From a virus: 38,214 nucleotides of DNA. Both the position numbers and the translations under genes were made by a program. Position 1 is the first letter of the stretch; every line of letters begins with the position of its first letter. Below the pieces are notes generated by a model. The model did not search any database. It was not told the origin of the DNA and saw only the letters and a program-made list of their open reading frames with translations. The stretch covers positions 1-38,214 of the IMG/VR virus record IMGVR_UViG_3300047509_000208; one strand, 5' to 3'. Below are positions 2,440 through 35,456 of this stretch, in pieces.

Positions 2440-2459
2440 TTTTTAATCAAGTAGTTGGT
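2427..2459 (+). other. 9-bp perfect hairpin over the stop codon of the structural gene
   Basis: ACCAACTAC (2427-2435) pairs perfectly with GTAGTTGGT (2451-2459) around a 15-nt loop that contains the stop codon of the gene ending at 2439. No T-run follows directly. A second hairpin with a T-run begins 5 nt later, so this one may protect the 3' end or assist termination. Confidence 0.5.
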
Positions 2460-2464
2460 TGCAA

Positions 2465-2497
2465 ACTGCGTCATGCTTCTTTGGCGCAGTATTTTTT
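2465..2497 (+). terminator. Rho-independent terminator
   Basis: ACTGCGTC (2465-2472) pairs with GGCGCAGT (2483-2490), 8 bp with one G-T wobble, a 10-nt loop, then ATTTTTT. This is a typical intrinsic terminator and probably ends most late transcription after the fibre-like gene. The T-run abuts the ribosome site of the next gene at 2507, so that gene depends on read-through or another promoter. Confidence 0.7.
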
Positions 2498-2506
2498 AGG
2501 ACTGTT

Positions 2507-2704
2507 ATGCAAATTATTTCAGAAGTATATGCTAGTTCATATGTTGATTTTGATGATGAAAAAGATATTTCCCATTTATTAGATCCTGTTTTTGTCGCAT
2601 TAAACAAAAAAGTTAGATCGCATATTAATGCCGAGAAAAGTAGTGGGAAATTTGATATTGAATTTAGGTTGCAAGTTATCGCACATACTAGAGATGAAGA
2701 ATAA
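2507..2704 (+). CDS. Small acidic hypothetical protein
   Basis: 65 residues from ATG 2507, which has AGGA a few bases upstream; an in-frame start at 2459 would lie inside the terminator stem and is not used. The protein is mixed alpha/beta with an acidic N-terminal half (YVDFDDEKDISHLLDPV) and no recognisable motif. It sits between the terminator and the VRR-NUC gene, 23 nt before the latter, and may form a short unit with it. Confidence 0.55.
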   Translation: MQIISEVYASSYVDFDDEKDISHLLDPVFVALNKKVRSHINAEKSSGKFDIEFRLQVIAHTRDEE

Positions 2705-2727
2705 TGTAGGTTATATCTTGGAGATCT

Positions 2728-3123
2728 ATGCCACTGCAACCAGAGCAGGTAGACCATATCAACATTGTAAACTGGTTTAATTATCAGTACCCAGAATTAG
2801 CAGATGATTTTCATCATTTTGCTAATGAGCGCAAATGCTCCATACAACAAGGAAGATTATTTAAACGCATGGGAGTTAAAAAAGGTGTCGCTGATTTCTT
2901 TCTCGCATATCCTATTCATGGTAAAGCTGGGCTATGGTTGGAGTTGAAAGTTGGTAAAAATAAACCATCTAAAGAGCAAATAGAATTTGGCGAAAGAAAA
3001 ATTCAACGCGGATATCAATTTGCATTCGTTTGGGGCTTTGATGCAGCGAAAGAAATGTTATCTACCTATTTGAAAGATTATATACCAAATAGTGATAAAA
3101 TTATGACAATTTCCTTTACATAA
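2728..3123 (+). CDS. VRR-NUC domain nuclease
   Basis: A 131-residue single-domain protein matching the VRR-NUC subclass of the PD-(D/E)XK nuclease fold. Key parts are the RMGVKKGVADFFLAYP segment (about residues 47-62, catalytic Asp in VADF) and LWLELKVGKNKPSKEQ (about 69-84, E-x-K catalytic pair). Stand-alone phage VRR-NUC proteins are thought to act as structure-specific nucleases in recombination, replication-fork processing or packaging. It is the last plus gene before a convergent region and starts with GGAGATCT upstream of ATG 2728. The family call is strong; the substrate is not known. Confidence 0.85.
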   Translation: MPLQPEQVDHINIVNWFNYQYPELADDFHHFANERKCSIQQGRLFKRMGVKKGVADFFLAYPIHGKAGLWLELKVGKNKPSKEQIEFGERKIQRGYQFAFVWGFDAAKEMLSTYLKDYIPNSDKIMTISFT

Positions 3124-29183: not shown

Positions 29184-29807
29184 ATGAGCTGGTTTTCAAG
29201 TTTTTTACATCCCGAAAGAGGGTATCAAGATGCGCTTAAAGTATTACAAAATTACTATAATGAGGGTAAGGGTTATCAGCAACCTTATCAACAAAATGGT
29301 GTTAACCAGGGTCGGGTTCAAACCTCACTTATTGATGAGTTAACAAATCCTGCGGCACTTAGGGATAAGTGGGAAAAAGGGTATAAAGAAAGTGAGGCCG
29401 CTAAAAACATGGAAAATATGGCAACGCAACATGGTGTTAATGCTGCCTCATCTATGGGACTTCTTGGCTCCAATACTGCTCTTAATGCTATTCAATCTGG
29501 AACATCACAAATTGCTGCACAAGATAAAGAAAACTATTTAAATGACTTAATGGAAAAATATAAAACCGGAGCTGGCCTATCTCAAAACATGTATAACACA
29601 GGCGCTCAAACAGCAGGGCAAATGGGGCAAAATGCTAATAATGTCGGACAAAATGCAGCTGGCCTTACCTATGGCGCAACAAATGCAGGAGGTGATGCAT
29701 TTGGCAGAATTGCAGGAATGGGCGTTAAGGGATTAATTGATTATTTAACGGGTGGATTTGGCAAAGGTGGGTTTGGCCGCGGAGCTTGGTCTACAGGAGG
29801 GGCATAG
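29184..29807 (+). CDS. Ejection (DNA transfer) protein, gp7 position
   Basis: 207 residues. Starts with MSWFSSFLHPERGYQDALKV. The rest is Gly, Ala, Asn and Gln-rich (NAASSMGLLGSNTALNAIQS, AGQMGQNANNVGQNAAGLTY) and ends with GGFGKGGFGRGAWSTGGA. This small, Ala/Gly-rich, membrane-compatible composition is usual for the first of three ejection proteins of P22-like phages. It would leave the virion with DNA and enter the host envelope. Confidence 0.7.
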   Translation: MSWFSSFLHPERGYQDALKVLQNYYNEGKGYQQPYQQNGVNQGRVQTSLIDELTNPAALRDKWEKGYKESEAAKNMENMATQHGVNAASSMGLLGSNTALNAIQSGTSQIAAQDKENYLNDLMEKYKTGAGLSQNMYNTGAQTAGQMGQNANNVGQNAAGLTYGATNAGGDAFGRIAGMGVKGLIDYLTGGFGKGGFGRGAWSTGGA

Positions 29808-29809
29808 TT

Positions 29810-31186
29810 ATGGCGCTTAATTTTAATATTCCTATGCCTTTAAGTGGTATGGATTCATTTGCCAAAGGCTTTGGTCTTACTGATAACCTTATGAAGCAAT
29901 TGCTTAGTCAGCGGGAGTTAAAGCAAAAGGCTGATCAATTTAAGGAGGAGTTGGCCTTGAAGAAAGCGGCAGCTGCCCGTGCTGGTGCTAACTCTGATTT
30001 ACATCGGGCTAAGTTGGAACAAGAAATTTTGGATTTAAAACATAAAAATGACCCAGCATGGAAGTGGAACCAATTTAAAAGTTCTATTGGTGGAATTGAT
30101 ATGGGCGAACAAGGCTCCTCAACTCAAGGCGATCAATATCCTGATTTGCATAAAATGTTTTCAGGACAAGGCGCTTTTCCTGAAGGTGAATTGGCCCATG
30201 GAAATATTAATTTAGGGAATAGACCACAAGTACCTAACCCTGAAACTGGTGGTACAAGTACTGTATATTCTACAAGTTTTGGCACACCAGAAGGTGAGGT
30301 TTTGGCTCCAAGGGTAAGTGATGATGGGCGTATATTATCCGAAGAAGAAGCGCAGGAACAATATAGGAAAACAGGAAAGCATTTAGGTATTTATTCAAGC
30401 CCTGATGAGGCAAATAAAGCCGCTGAGTTTATTCATCAGCAACAAGCTGAGTCCGTTGGTGCTAAGCCTGGTCAGCATCTATTGGATGTATTGAGAAATG
30501 ACCCACTTAAAAGGGCTTTTTTTAAATATTTGTATAAGGTTGATCCTTTGGCTATGGAAAAGGAGACTCCTGAGCAAAAAAGGGAAAACGATATAAAAGA
30601 TGCTGCCGTTAAAGAACAACAAACAATTGATATTAAAAGGGCACAAGATATAAAAGAAGCAGCAAAAGAATTGCAATTATCAGGGTTAGATATTGATGCT
30701 ATTCATGACATTCTCACGGGACCTGACTCATTAAGCACAGGCGTCATAAAATCTGTAATAGGTAAAGTAGGATTTGGTAGCCAGAAATTAGGTGAACTTA
30801 ATGAAAGAGCAATCAGATTGCAGGCGCAAATGACGCACGCATTAAGTTCAAGAGGTGGGGTGGGTGCTGCAAATATAGTGGCATCCGGTAAACCTTCTTC
30901 TTGGAAAGGAACACAGGAAAATCTAGGTATAACTAAAGCTTATGCTGAGCGCATTAAAAACGAATATGATTTATTAAATAATGAATACAAGCAAATAATG
31001 CATAAAGATTTGCCTTACACATTGCCTGAATATGTTCAAAAAATTAATAATAAAATTAACAAACATATAAACTTTAAACCAAAAACTAAATTTTCAAGCG
31101 AAAAAGAATTTCATGATTACATGAAAGGGTTGAAACCAGAAGAAAGAAAATTAACTCTTAAGGTATTAAGGGAGGCATCAAAATGA
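29810..31186 (+). CDS. Ejection protein, gp20 position
   Basis: 458 residues from ATG 29810 (an in-frame ATG at 29786 lies inside the previous gene). Helical N-terminus (LMKQLLSQRELKQKADQFKE), a Gly-rich linker, then residues about 160-215 with VLAPRVSDDGRILSEEEAQE and KTGKHLGIYSSPDEANKAAE. I have seen this small module in internal virion proteins of many podoviruses. The C-terminal part is a long charged helix. ATGA overlap with the next gene. Confidence 0.7.
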   Translation: MALNFNIPMPLSGMDSFAKGFGLTDNLMKQLLSQRELKQKADQFKEELALKKAAAARAGANSDLHRAKLEQEILDLKHKNDPAWKWNQFKSSIGGIDMGEQGSSTQGDQYPDLHKMFSGQGAFPEGELAHGNINLGNRPQVPNPETGGTSTVYSTSFGTPEGEVLAPRVSDDGRILSEEEAQEQYRKTGKHLGIYSSPDEANKAAEFIHQQQAESVGAKPGQHLLDVLRNDPLKRAFFKYLYKVDPLAMEKETPEQKRENDIKDAAVKEQQTIDIKRAQDIKEAAKELQLSGLDIDAIHDILTGPDSLSTGVIKSVIGKVGFGSQKLGELNERAIRLQAQMTHALSSRGGVGAANIVASGKPSSWKGTQENLGITKAYAERIKNEYDLLNNEYKQIMHKDLPYTLPEYVQKINNKINKHINFKPKTKFSSEKEFHDYMKGLKPEERKLTLKVLREASK

Positions 31187-32049
31187 GTTATGTTCCTTCA
31201 GAAGAAGCATTAAACCAATATGAAGAAAAGGAGCCATCATTAGGTGCTAAATATAAAGATTATTTGAAAGGATTGGGGTCGACTTATCTTCAAGAAGGTG
31301 CGATGGGAGGCTATCATCTAGCGAATCTTCCTTCTTATGCGTATGAGGCAATTACAGGTAAACCCCTATATCATTTGCCAAAACCAGATGTTACTGAATT
31401 TATCCCTGAATCTGAAGCGGGTCAATTTGGAAAAGAAGTAGGGAGCACGGCGTCCGATTTGATTCGTCTTATGGCACCATCTAATCTTGCTTTACGCGGA
31501 GCCAATGCTTTGACTAGGTATCATCCGCTTACATCCAGACAAGTCGGGAGACCATTTCGCGAGGTTGAGCATGGAATAGCCAATGCAGAACAAAGACCTA
31601 ATTTTAATATTCCTATGCGTGATGTTTATGAGGCATCTGATTTGTTATCTCATCCAGCATTACAAGCAGGAGGAAGTACTGGTAAAAGCCTTACACCAAT
31701 GGGAATTGCATCATTGATGCAAGGACTTACAGAGAGTGAATATCCAGCAATAATGTCCACTAAATCTTTATTAAATCATTTAACTAGAGCTTTACCGAAG
31801 GGTGGTGAGGGGCATCTAGCGCAAACGCGTGTAAACCCACTTGAGCAACGATTGATGGGGAATGTCTACGAGGGACTTAATAATGCAGGATTGACAGAAG
31901 AAGCAGGTATTTTACAAAGAGGAATGGAAGCAGCTAGAAGGCATTATAAAACAAAAGAAAATATTGGGGAAATAAAGAGAGCGATACTAAAGCCTTTAGG
32001 TATAGGCGCTGTAATGAAAGCGCTTTTTTCTGGAGTAAAAAAGCTTTAA
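31183..32049 (+). CDS. Ejection protein, gp16 position
   Basis: 288 residues. Tyr, Leu, Gly and Ala-rich (AMGGYHLANLPSYAYEAITG), with a basic helical end (KRAILKPLGIGAVMKALFSG). No lytic-enzyme motif is visible, and it is shorter than P22 gp16 (609 residues). Place and composition make a DNA-ejection protein most likely. Its 3' end overlaps a tiny minus-strand gene by 4 nt. Confidence 0.6.
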   Translation: MSYVPSEEALNQYEEKEPSLGAKYKDYLKGLGSTYLQEGAMGGYHLANLPSYAYEAITGKPLYHLPKPDVTEFIPESEAGQFGKEVGSTASDLIRLMAPSNLALRGANALTRYHPLTSRQVGRPFREVEHGIANAEQRPNFNIPMRDVYEASDLLSHPALQAGGSTGKSLTPMGIASLMQGLTESEYPAIMSTKSLLNHLTRALPKGGEGHLAQTRVNPLEQRLMGNVYEGLNNAGLTEEAGILQRGMEAARRHYKTKENIGEIKRAILKPLGIGAVMKALFSGVKKL

Positions 32050-32123
32050 TATGGCTCCCTATCCTCATTATTGTTTGAATTAGATAGAACTAATAAAAAT
32101 ATACCTATGAAAAACCAAATCAT
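32046..32123 (-). CDS. 25-residue membrane micro-protein
   Basis: From ATG 32123 the frame encodes MIWFFIGIFLLVLSNSNNNE followed by DREPY. It is one hydrophobic helix and a short charged tail. TGGAGG lies 7 nt before the ATG, an almost perfect ribosome site, which makes chance unlikely. It follows the minus gene at 32141 by 17 nt. It could be a holin-like peptide, an antiholin or part of a superinfection-exclusion pair. Confidence 0.5.
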   Translation of the reverse strand: MIWFFIGIFLLVLSNSNNNEDREPY

Positions 32124-32140
32124 CACAACACCTCCAAAAA

Positions 32141-32341
32141 TTAAATTAATCCGTACCTATGTAGAGCAACAGGAACTAAAATGGAAAGAACTATCGATGC
32201 GATAACCCAATTAAACTTAGAGTTAATCCCATCTACCTTTTTTTCTAACTTGTCAAACTTGTAATCAATATGTTGGAATAGAGCGTCATGCACCCTTAGT
32301 CTCACTTCATGCTCAATGTATTGTTCCTGTTGGGTATTCAT
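32141..32341 (-). CDS. Small membrane protein with N-terminal coiled coil
   Basis: 66 residues from ATG 32341, preferred over GTG 32347 by its spacing from AAAGGAG. A charged helix with heptads (FDKLEKKVDGINSKFNWVIA) leads into one C-terminal membrane span (IASIVLSILVPVALHRYGLI). The layout is like XhlA- and holin-associated proteins. It sits antisense between the last ejection gene and the tail fibres, where P22 has sieA and its immunity region. Superinfection exclusion or lysis is suggested by place and topology only. Confidence 0.6.
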   Translation of the reverse strand: MNTQQEQYIEHEVRLRVHDALFQHIDYKFDKLEKKVDGINSKFNWVIASIVLSILVPVALHRYGLI

Positions 32342-32367
32342 TTTCACTCCTTTAATCTATTATGGGC

Positions 32368-32395
32368 ATTATATATTGTTTTGGACAAAATGCAA
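32368..32395 (-). promoter_or_regulatory. Promoter of the small-membrane-protein cassette
   Basis: On the minus strand TTGCAT (32395-32390), 16 nt, then a perfect TATAAT (32373-32368), followed by AAAGGAG and ATG 32341. A private promoter agrees with a moron-type cassette expressed apart from the late operon. Confidence 0.55.
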
Positions 32396-32410
32396 GCATT
32401 AAACTATAAT
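32382..32410 (+). promoter_or_regulatory. Promoter of the HNH gene (and tail genes beyond)
   Basis: TGGACA (32382-32387), 17 nt, then TATAAT (32405-32410). A single mismatch to consensus, ending about 44 nt before ATG 32454. It overlaps the opposite promoter, so the pair may be mutually exclusive. Confidence 0.6.
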
Positions 32411-32453: not shown

Positions 32454-33293
32454 ATGGCACATATTAAATATCAGATTAACGATAAGGTTGGTAATTTTAT
32501 AATTACTGAAGAAGCTGGTAGATATAAGATAAAGGAAACTGATAAAAAGGTTACTAGGTTTGTTAGAGTTAAATGTATTTTTTGCGAGAAAGAACAAGTT
32601 GGTGTAATTGGAAAATTTAATAGTAGAAGCGTAGTTTGTGATTGTGATAAAAAGCCAAAATTTGTGTTGGAATTAAAGAATTATATTGGAGAAGTTCATG
32701 GGCACTATAAAATAATTAAAGATTTGGGTTATTTGCCTAATGAAAAGTGTAAATTAGGAAGAAGCAGATACGTAATAGCGCAATGCGTGCATTGTAATAG
32801 TGAAGCCAAAGGAATTTACAGCGTATTTAGAAAACAAAAAAGAGGGTGCGTTTGTCAGGCAATTGTAGGTGTATCAGGGGACAGGAAACGTATTTATCAA
32901 ATTTATAGCCACATGATGAATCGATGTCATAATGAAAAAAACACAAGATTTGAATCTTATGGGGCAAAAGGGATTACGGTTTGCGATGAATGGAGAAATG
33001 ATAGAGAATTATTTTATAAATGGTCTATTGAAAATAATTATGACTCACATTTATCGATAGATAGGATAAAAAATGAACTTGGTTATAGTCCAAGTAATTG
33101 TAGATGGTCTACTAATGCGGAGCAGGTGCATAATAGATCAGTTTCTTTAGATCTGGAAATTGTAAGAAAAATAAAAATTATGCTTAAAAATGGAGTTAAA
33201 CAGGCTGATATTTGTCGAGAATTTAAATTATCACCTGCTAAAATATCAAATATTAAGACAGGCACATCTTATTCATCTATAATCATTGAATAA
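32454..33293 (+). CDS. HNH homing endonuclease with zinc ribbons and HTH
   Basis: 279 residues. Two similar N-terminal units with zinc-ribbon cysteines (C41-x2-C44 with C62-x-C64; C111-x2-C114 with C132-x-C134). Next comes the phage HNH core: YSHMMNRCHN (151-160), YGAKGITVCDEW (169-180), SIDRIKNELGYSPSNCRWST (201-220) and EQVHNR. A C-terminal helix-turn-helix follows (KNGVKQADICREFKLSPAKI, 245-264). This is a free-standing homing endonuclease that cuts DNA lacking the gene and so spreads. It has its own promoter and sits between the ejection and fibre genes. Confidence 0.85.
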   Translation: MAHIKYQINDKVGNFIITEEAGRYKIKETDKKVTRFVRVKCIFCEKEQVGVIGKFNSRSVVCDCDKKPKFVLELKNYIGEVHGHYKIIKDLGYLPNEKCKLGRSRYVIAQCVHCNSEAKGIYSVFRKQKRGCVCQAIVGVSGDRKRIYQIYSHMMNRCHNEKNTRFESYGAKGITVCDEWRNDRELFYKWSIENNYDSHLSIDRIKNELGYSPSNCRWSTNAEQVHNRSVSLDLEIVRKIKIMLKNGVKQADICREFKLSPAKISNIKTGTSYSSIIIE

Positions 33294-33320: not shown

Positions 33321-35456
33321 ATGCTCTTTACACGAGGTGCTAATCCTATATGGTTGATGGACGATCTTCAAGGTAATATCCTAGATGATAGTTTTTTTAT
33401 TTTCTTTTTACAAAATACAATACCGTACATTCCTGCTACAGTTTATCAGAGTCCTGATGGAACACCTTGGACAAACCCAATTCAATTTCTTGGCAATGGC
33501 ACGCTGCCAAATAATATTTTCTTTGATCCTAATATTTTCTACAGAATTGAAGTGAGACAAGGCCCAGATCAGTCATATCCACTCATCTATGAGGTAAACG
33601 ACTATAAACCTGGATCTAGTGGCAATACTCCCATTGATACACTTGCAATGACAACAAGTAATCAAATAACTAACCCACAATTTGCACTTATAAATTTTGC
33701 ATCACCATTTACTTTTACAGGAACAGACCCAGACCCAATACAAATTGGCCCAGGCTGGTACCTAGAAGCTGCGGGAACAGGTACAGTGACACTCACGCAG
33801 GTACCCCTAACTAGCACTACTCCTACCCCCTCTAATGCGTCTTATGCGCTTGAAATAGAATTAAGTGGATGGAATAGTGGAACAGTCTTCTTAAGACAGC
33901 GATTCGCTCAAAATGGTGTGCTGTGGGCAAACGAAATTGTATCAACAGCCCTTACAGCTAGAGTTGATGGTCTGAATACCTCAATCAGTGCATCTTTTTA
34001 TAATTCAATGGGAATATTAATTGCTACCGTTTTAAATCCTGTAACCGTAGATAGTGAATTTAATGAATACCCTGATCACGCAACATTTCCTGCATCTACT
34101 GATACAGATACGCCACCTAATACTTATATTGATTATAAAATTTCTCTTCCAAGCACTGTTGATATTTATATTACAAGTGTTCAGGTCATTGTTGAGGATA
34201 TGCCTGTTAATCCAGCTTTTGAACAAGATTCAATTGAAAGACAAATTGACCATACATTCCACTTCTATCAACCTCAGATTAACTTTAAGCCTATCCCGAG
34301 CATGCTAGTGGGTTGGGATTTTCCACTAAATCCTGCACAACCCCTTGGGCCTTCAGTCACTATGAACACAACTTCTGCCTACATTTGGGATCAGACTATA
34401 GGCCAAAGCGTAGTTGGTAATATAGCCGTGGTCAGAAATGCCGTTACAGGAGGGTTTCAAGCCACTACAGCTAATGCTGCTGAGGCTTTCTATGTCATGC
34501 AGTACCTATCAGGCGCTCAGGCTAAAAAGATACTTGGAACATCATTATCAGTGAATTTAAATGCATTTAGGACTCAGGCAGGTGGCACCGTAACTGCTAG
34601 AGTTTATCTTTACAGAGGAAGCGCTGCGGCTGTTTTTCCAACCTTACCTTTAACAATAGGCGGGGCAACACCTTTAAGTGCCGGAGGTGTGTTCACTTTA
34701 AATACATCTGCCGGACAAGGACTTAATTGGACTCTTATACCTAGAGGTAATTGGGGCCAAGCTTCCGGGACATTATCTACGGTAAATACTGGGGATTATT
34801 CAACCCTTAATGATGCAACAGATTTACAATTTCAAGGCTGGGAAATCACAGATGCAACACAAATTTCAGACACTGATAAATTTTTAATTGTAGTTACTTT
34901 CCAATGCCCTACCACAGGTAGCGTTGTTGTTATAAATTCAATATCAGTTGTTCCTGGTGATATTCCAACACGTCCTGCACCTCAAACAGCCGATGAGGTA
35001 ATCAGAGAATGCGAGCGCTATTTTGAGATGAGTTTCAATATAGGCTCTGTTCCTGGTACTGCGGTTACTGACGCAGGTTCAATCCTTCAAACACTTACCA
35101 CAACTGTTGGTGGAGGAACCACAAATGTCTATGCAACCCCTTTTACTATAAATTTTAATTCTTACAAACTTTCACCTACTAGCACGGCTATTAAGTTTTA
35201 TTCTGTAATCAATACAGGGGCCGTTGATACAATGAGAGCCGGAATTTACACAGCGGGTAGCGGCATTATTGGATCGGGAGAGGTCACTGCGTCAACATTT
35301 TACAATACACTATACATAGGGCAATCAAATTTTACCCCTACTGGAGCTAATAATTCAGCTATAACAACTGCCGCATCAGGCGCTGTATCTAACGCAGGCT
35401 TTGTACAATTCCATTATACAGCAAGCTCAAGAATTGGGATTGAGGTACTAAGTTAA
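33321..35456 (+). CDS. Tail fibre / appendage protein
   Basis: 711 residues. N-terminal 115 residues (FTRGANPIWLMDDLQGNILD, then TVYQSPDGTPWTNPIQFLGN) look like a virion-binding domain found at the start of phage fibre proteins. It is followed by two beta-sandwich-like domains with Gly/Thr/Asn-rich strands (GTVFLRQRFAQNGVLWANEI; GWDFPLNPAQPLGPSVTMN), reminiscent of carbohydrate-binding modules. No P22-type tailspike endorhamnosidase signature is present. It is likely a receptor-binding or adaptor appendage. Confidence 0.7.
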   Translation: MLFTRGANPIWLMDDLQGNILDDSFFIFFLQNTIPYIPATVYQSPDGTPWTNPIQFLGNGTLPNNIFFDPNIFYRIEVRQGPDQSYPLIYEVNDYKPGSSGNTPIDTLAMTTSNQITNPQFALINFASPFTFTGTDPDPIQIGPGWYLEAAGTGTVTLTQVPLTSTTPTPSNASYALEIELSGWNSGTVFLRQRFAQNGVLWANEIVSTALTARVDGLNTSISASFYNSMGILIATVLNPVTVDSEFNEYPDHATFPASTDTDTPPNTYIDYKISLPSTVDIYITSVQVIVEDMPVNPAFEQDSIERQIDHTFHFYQPQINFKPIPSMLVGWDFPLNPAQPLGPSVTMNTTSAYIWDQTIGQSVVGNIAVVRNAVTGGFQATTANAAEAFYVMQYLSGAQAKKILGTSLSVNLNAFRTQAGGTVTARVYLYRGSAAAVFPTLPLTIGGATPLSAGGVFTLNTSAGQGLNWTLIPRGNWGQASGTLSTVNTGDYSTLNDATDLQFQGWEITDATQISDTDKFLIVVTFQCPTTGSVVVINSISVVPGDIPTRPAPQTADEVIRECERYFEMSFNIGSVPGTAVTDAGSILQTLTTTVGGGTTNVYATPFTINFNSYKLSPTSTAIKFYSVINTGAVDTMRAGIYTAGSGIIGSGEVTASTFYNTLYIGQSNFTPTGANNSAITTAASGAVSNAGFVQFHYTASSRIGIEVLS

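Follow-up and report, generated by a model that had tools for sequence, protein, structure and literature searches.

The window analysed here, the 38,214 bases of the IMG/VR virus record IMGVR_UViG_3300047509_000208, which is not classed as a complete genome, has a P22-like gene order of terminase, portal, scaffold, coat, three presumed ejection genes and tail fibre. In the pocket between the last ejection gene and the fibre gene lie an HNH gene on the plus strand and two small frames on the minus strand, which oppose the late operon and are convergent with the last ejection gene. We found that the smaller frame, encoding a one-span microprotein of 25 amino acids (aa), is the resident gene of this pocket, while the other, encoding a 66-aa protein (hereafter the 66-mer) with a coiled-coil stalk, is optional. 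The locus may act as a superinfection exclusion unit at the position that sieA holds in phage P22; tentative as this assignment is, it is the function best supported by our analysis, because place, strand, private promoter, membrane nature and the patchy, duplicated partner all match. Both frames, both ribosome sites and the promoter were found where the initial annotation of this DNA had placed them, and its view of the two products as membrane proteins agrees with our predictions, which give one span for each.

A resident microprotein and an optional coiled-coil partner

The relatives, a large group of uncultured P22-like phages, were sampled by their coat protein (alignment A4, 80 loci), which avoids choosing them by the studied gene itself. 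Fragments and unverified genomes make up most of the related records; 38 contigs of this sample span the whole pocket, and 32 records are near full length. Small open reading frames (ORFs) were called from ribosome sites, hydrophobicity and position. In a strict scan we accepted antisense hydrophobic ORFs of 16-60 aa that start with ATG, have a ribosome site and stop close to where the last ejection gene stops. One-span microproteins of this kind were detected in 26 of the 38 pockets, as against 9 of 297 control late-gene ends (p 3e-22). When any start was accepted and the ribosome site was not required, the counts were 32/38 and 71/297, respectively, and we base our claim on the strict numbers only. 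In the window, where both strands were scanned, the 25-aa ORF is the only hydrophobic one of 16-60 aa with a strong Shine-Dalgarno site. Its stop overlaps that of the ejection gene via TTAA, and exactly the same overlap (offset -3) is seen in many of the relatives' microprotein genes. The microproteins range from 18 to 57 aa across relatives and are highly variable in sequence (for example MFWLMLAIIWVLIVIFWP in L156 and MLMCLFIFGISCLTIAFILEKTSSCCEANASNIKCTCDQY in L152); among three homologues of a 40-aa type, the ratio of non-synonymous to synonymous change (pN/pS) is 0.18-0.28.

The 66-mer belongs to a family of 50 loci, 49 of them from profile scans of IMG/VR and one in a metagenome-assembled genome. 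Its members share the head EQYIEHEVrLRvhdE or a close variant of it, have stalks of very variable length, and mostly end their C-terminal span with LPvvLHxxKLi; the AlphaFold model of the window protein is one helix over residues 3-62 (mean pLDDT 82). Synonymous change is near saturation between family pairs and pN/pS lies between 0.03 and 0.39. The initial annotation had proposed that relatives be compared for loss of the frames; the 66-aa frame is kept where it is present, with saturated synonymous and low non-synonymous change (pN/pS 0.20 with L005 and 0.29 with L020), and we therefore take it to be a real gene under purifying selection. BLAST of the locus and its proteins against INPHARED phages and PLSDB plasmids gave no useful match, and searches of Pfam, PHROG, Rfam and PDB sequences gave weak coiled-coil matches at most. 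Judged by sequence comparison, this head-stalk-anchor family is new. Profile comparison (97% probability) links it to a sister family, whose head is ETRIALLEQSI, and single proteins such as that of L134 bridge the two.

Copies of the 66-mer family have two main placements. One is antisense in the ejection/fibre pocket (the window, L005, L013, L024, L030, L038, L040, L019, L052 and others), and the other is in early operons, where a Cro-like gene often immediately precedes the copy or a serine recombinase is close by; a few copies lie elsewhere in the late region (L004, L018, L032, L037 and L047). The early copies of L006, L012, L017, L020, L023, L026, L027, L029 and L039 are only a few genes from an invertase-like serine recombinase. 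Tandem paralogues are common, with three in each of G003 and G029 and up to six matches in G022. The family occupies 8 of the 38 unselected pockets, antisense every time, and is found anywhere in the record in 10 of the 32 near-full-length records, so that it must be regarded as accessory. The coat-protein sample thus rules out the 66-mer as an essential partner, and it also rules out the presence of some coiled-coil tail-anchored protein in every relative, the two profiles combined (family or sister) reaching 14/32. In G007, G014 and G018 the microprotein stays in the pocket and a relative of the 66-mer is located in the early region, showing that the two genes are separable. The two-gene cassette of the initial annotation is therefore not a fixed unit: the microprotein mostly occurs without the 66-mer, and the 66-mer family also occurs in early operons without the microprotein.

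The antisense promoter and the gene neighbourhood

Taken in the window alone, the antisense promoter match is not above chance (P 0.16 by shuffles) because its -35 matches at 3 of 6 positions. The promoter becomes convincing because its site matches an 18-mer shared with related pockets. The regions upstream of the cassettes have ATGCTTGnTTTTTGTCCA in common, then TATAAT 16-18 nucleotides (nt) past the -35, and positions 32399-32382 of the window are a perfect copy of the shared 18-mer. With a matrix built without the window this site scores 23 bits, compared with 14.5 for the next-best site in the window and at most 15.5 in shuffles. The same matrix gives one strong antisense pocket site each in G004, G007, G014 and G018, which are outside the training set; the coat proteins of G014 and G018 are only ~30% identical. 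Sites of at least 14 bits are present in 25 of the 38 pockets of the coat sample, all antisense; the matrix was partly trained on loci of that sample, and about nine of the 25 are outside training. Over 1.12 Mb, only three other hits were obtained, two in the 38 contigs that span the pocket and one in a contig that does not; the element occurs essentially once per genome. An exact scan of all IMG/VR returned 21 matches, and at least 13 lie in this pocket. The -10 matches at 5 or all 6 positions in 32 of 39 aligned sites. Most copies of the 66-mer family in the pocket lie behind the 18-mer element, whereas the early copies do not. Since the spacer positions (TGTCCA) are conserved beyond the needs of sigma-70, the 18-mer is likely to be the site for a regulator.

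Two other candidates in this region were rejected. The palindrome AATGCAAGCATT, considered as an operator, has no excess of copies in the window and proved to be part of the 18-mer. On the plus strand, a good promoter match at 32382-32410 (TGGACA, 17 nt, TATAAT; 11/12) lies partly over the antisense promoter and reads toward the HNH gene; a good plus-strand -10 exists in only 6 of the 39 sites, and a conserved bidirectional promoter was dropped in favour of an arrangement local to few genomes.

It could be argued that the conserved function resides in the antisense transcript or in the promoter as such, tuning for example ejection or fibre expression, and that the microprotein is secondary. 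The 18-mer is indeed better conserved than the peptides, and because the gene ends overlap, an antisense RNA would pair with the ejection mRNA; according to its annotation, P22 likewise has an antisense RNA (sar) in this region. However, the microproteins retain ribosome sites and a hydrophobic span, the 40-aa type has the low pN/pS given above, and an Rfam search gave no match. We therefore give this explanation little credence.

Table 1 Features of the pocket and its borders in the window
Feature	Position	Strand	Details
Last of three presumed ejection genes	31183..32049	+	Follows a PHROG 'DNA ejection' gene (29184-29807) and the next gene
25-aa one-span microprotein MIWFFIGIFLLVLSNSNNNEDREPY, resident pocket gene	32046..32123	-	ATG 32123, GGAGG 32135-32131
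66-aa accessory protein: N-terminal motif EQYIEHEVRLRVHD, coiled-coil stalk, C-terminal membrane span	32141..32341	-	ATG 32341, AAAGGAG 32353-32347
Antisense promoter	32368..32395	-	-35 TTGCAT (32395-32390), 16 nt, -10 TATAAT (32373-32368)
Conserved 18-mer ATGCTTGCATTTTGTCCA over -35 and spacer, presumed regulator site	32382..32399	-	Matrix comparison with relatives
HNH endonuclease gene	32454..33293	+	PHROG HNH endonuclease, E 1.8e-37; between antisense promoter and fibre gene
Tail fibre gene, pocket boundary	33321..35456	+	Homologues also bound the pocket in relatives

The last ejection gene has no family match of its own. Related pockets hold further genes just before the fibre gene: helix-turn-helix proteins of ~165-198 aa on the late (plus) strand (L059 13539-14036, L019 3320-3871 and L134 19529-20098), which recall the regulators of the P22 immI region, and, in many relatives (L081, L087, L088, L092 and others), a very basic protein of 45-50 aa (MPLVKGKKAKTRAGFSENIRREM...). 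Outside the pocket, the large terminase gene of G001 is immediately preceded by a gene for a DUF1003 membrane protein (L060 14204-14560; G001 34204-34560).

Possible functions of the locus

In the P22 annotation, sieA is antisense, has its own promoter and is located between genes 16 and 9, with 22 nt separating it from the end of gene 16. The initial annotation had likened the locus to sieA, and in pocket, strand and possession of its own promoter the likeness holds. The 66-mer family adds to the case for exclusion; it is accessory, moves between the pocket and the early operon and is tandem-duplicated, with as many as 6 matches in one record, and a patchy, duplicated and mobile gene is the pattern expected of exclusion or counter-defence genes. 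In the window phage, a coiled-coil, tail-anchored protein has been added in front of the microprotein gene. We propose that early in infection both proteins would insert into the host's inner membrane, their expression preceding the strong late transcription from the opposite strand that would override the antisense promoter. A second phage with a similar ejection apparatus would then be stopped from passing its DNA across the inner membrane, the microprotein acting via its membrane helix and the coiled-coil protein widening or sharpening the block via the conserved cytoplasmic head motif, and linkage to the ejection genes would keep the blocker matched to its target.

Several observations weigh against superinfection exclusion. 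SieA is matched neither by sequence nor by topology, and its motif FxRYPxEAxxFNK is absent from both window proteins; by sequence, size, predicted topology and motif, neither of them is a SieA. The microprotein sequences are so divergent that a specific partner is hard to see, and the conserved part of the 66-mer is a cytoplasmic head with no obvious match to the variable ejection proteins. Furthermore, no tyrosine integrase was found in any of 38 records (the window and 37 relatives), so that a prophage state is without support. The term moron, used in the initial annotation, fits the 66-aa gene as a patchy and accessory one, but the prophage expression that it implies is unsupported. Without an integrase, protection would concern lytic or non-integrating infection rather than the classical lysogen.

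The same pattern of copies could reflect anti-defence or host take-over, in which early membrane adaptors would bind a host membrane complex via the YIEHEVRLRV head and so shield the phage from membrane-linked defence. Such a role would fit the early copies of the family, which immediately follow a Cro-like gene or have a serine recombinase nearby, as well as the nearly invariant head, the widely variable stalk length and the tandem paralogues. It leaves unexplained why the microprotein is tied to the end of the ejection gene, though, and it names no known partner or target; we judge it improbable.

A holin/antiholin pair had been put forward as the alternative on the ground that no other lysis gene was visible, and we too recognised no endolysin anywhere in the window. 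The microprotein would then act as a holin of very small size, with the coiled-coil protein as its XhlA-like partner or as an antiholin, and together they would release a cytoplasmic lysozyme encoded elsewhere. A GH24 lysozyme is present in 28 of the 38 records and, in the relatives examined, lies between a tail gene and a VRR nuclease gene and not beside the pocket genes. The equivalent place in the window (2440-2728) is without a lysozyme, and a hidden one was not found in the window by tblastn, PHROG or Pfam PF00959. The lysozyme-bearing relatives examined have no sequence-conserved membrane protein and no holin adjoining the lysozyme, and no membrane gene is placed more regularly than that of the microprotein. 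A holin would be looked for in all lysozyme-bearing relatives; the 66-mer family occurs in 10/32, and the microprotein in 26/38 by the strict scan and 32/38 by the lax one (lax control 71/297). To our knowledge, peptides of 18-25 residues are far below the size of known holins.

Of the sister family, 7 of 11 members match the PHROG 'hemolysin' (XhlA), with a best E of 3e-6, and PBSX XhlA and SPP1 gp24.1, which likewise carry a C-terminal span, need a second holin in order to kill (PMC6316719). But the XhlA scores stay under the Pfam cut-off (PF10779, 34.7 bits, exceeded in 0/20 records), and the XhlA model also matches in 13 of 14 control genomes; because it matches weakly almost everywhere, membership in XhlA was dropped. 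The coiled-coil protein is absent in most relatives, and the antisense promoter runs against late transcription. G018, in addition to its microprotein, has an M15 endolysin (PHROG E 2e-22) with a small membrane protein, recognised by no family, directly behind it. The case for a holin/antiholin pair is thus weakened by relatives whose endolysins lie elsewhere and which usually lack the 66-mer. We consider a lysis function unlikely, and keep it in view because the lysozyme-bearing relatives have no other sequence-conserved membrane protein and because of the weak resemblance to XhlA.

Returning to superinfection exclusion, we suggest, with less assurance than for the locus of the window, that the pockets may define an undescribed and nearly universal gene class. 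Its members would encode one-span microproteins of as few as 18 residues, have a highly conserved promoter of their own and be fixed at the 3' end of the ejection operon of P22-like phages without detected integrase. The microproteins would exclude superinfecting DNA in lytic growth, and some phages would supplement them with exchangeable coiled-coil tail-anchored proteins. If exclusion is the function, phages without an integrase guard their host from rivals with peptides barely above one membrane helix, encoded beside the genes on which they would act, and the locus would offer a minimal system for how DNA passage across the inner membrane is blocked. If lysis is the function, the microproteins would be among the smallest holins. 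Under either of these, the 18-mer can serve as a genomic marker with which to find the locus in environmental phages, and it suggests that a regulator exists; the mobile head-stalk-anchor family is new whichever holds.

Comparison with known systems

Imm and Sp, the exclusion proteins of the lytic phage T4, are small membrane proteins. Likened by description only, the window proteins resemble them in being small membrane proteins that would protect in lytic infection, and differ from them in gene place and size. The Bdr proteins of Borrelia are multi-copy and phage-borne; these and the DUF1640/MCUR1-type proteins have, like the 66-mer family, a conserved head, a coiled-coil stalk of variable length and a C-terminal anchor, but this architecture alone is shared, and Pfam scans gave no profile match. 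The XhlA family (PBSX XhlA, SPP1 gp24.1; PF10779, PHROG 1193) is similar to the 66-mer in its short coiled coil and single C-terminal span, as predicted from sequence and AlphaFold, and in a weak profile similarity. Unlike XhlA, the 66-mer falls below the Pfam cut-off, does not lie beside an endolysin or a two-span holin, is accessory and has its own YIEHEVRLRV head. P22 SieA, with 162-164 aa, three spans, a conserved cytoplasmic motif and expression from the prophage, differs clearly from the window proteins of 25 and 66 aa with one span each; yet, as in the window, it is a membrane protein encoded antisense, from its own promoter, between the last ejection gene and the tail gene.
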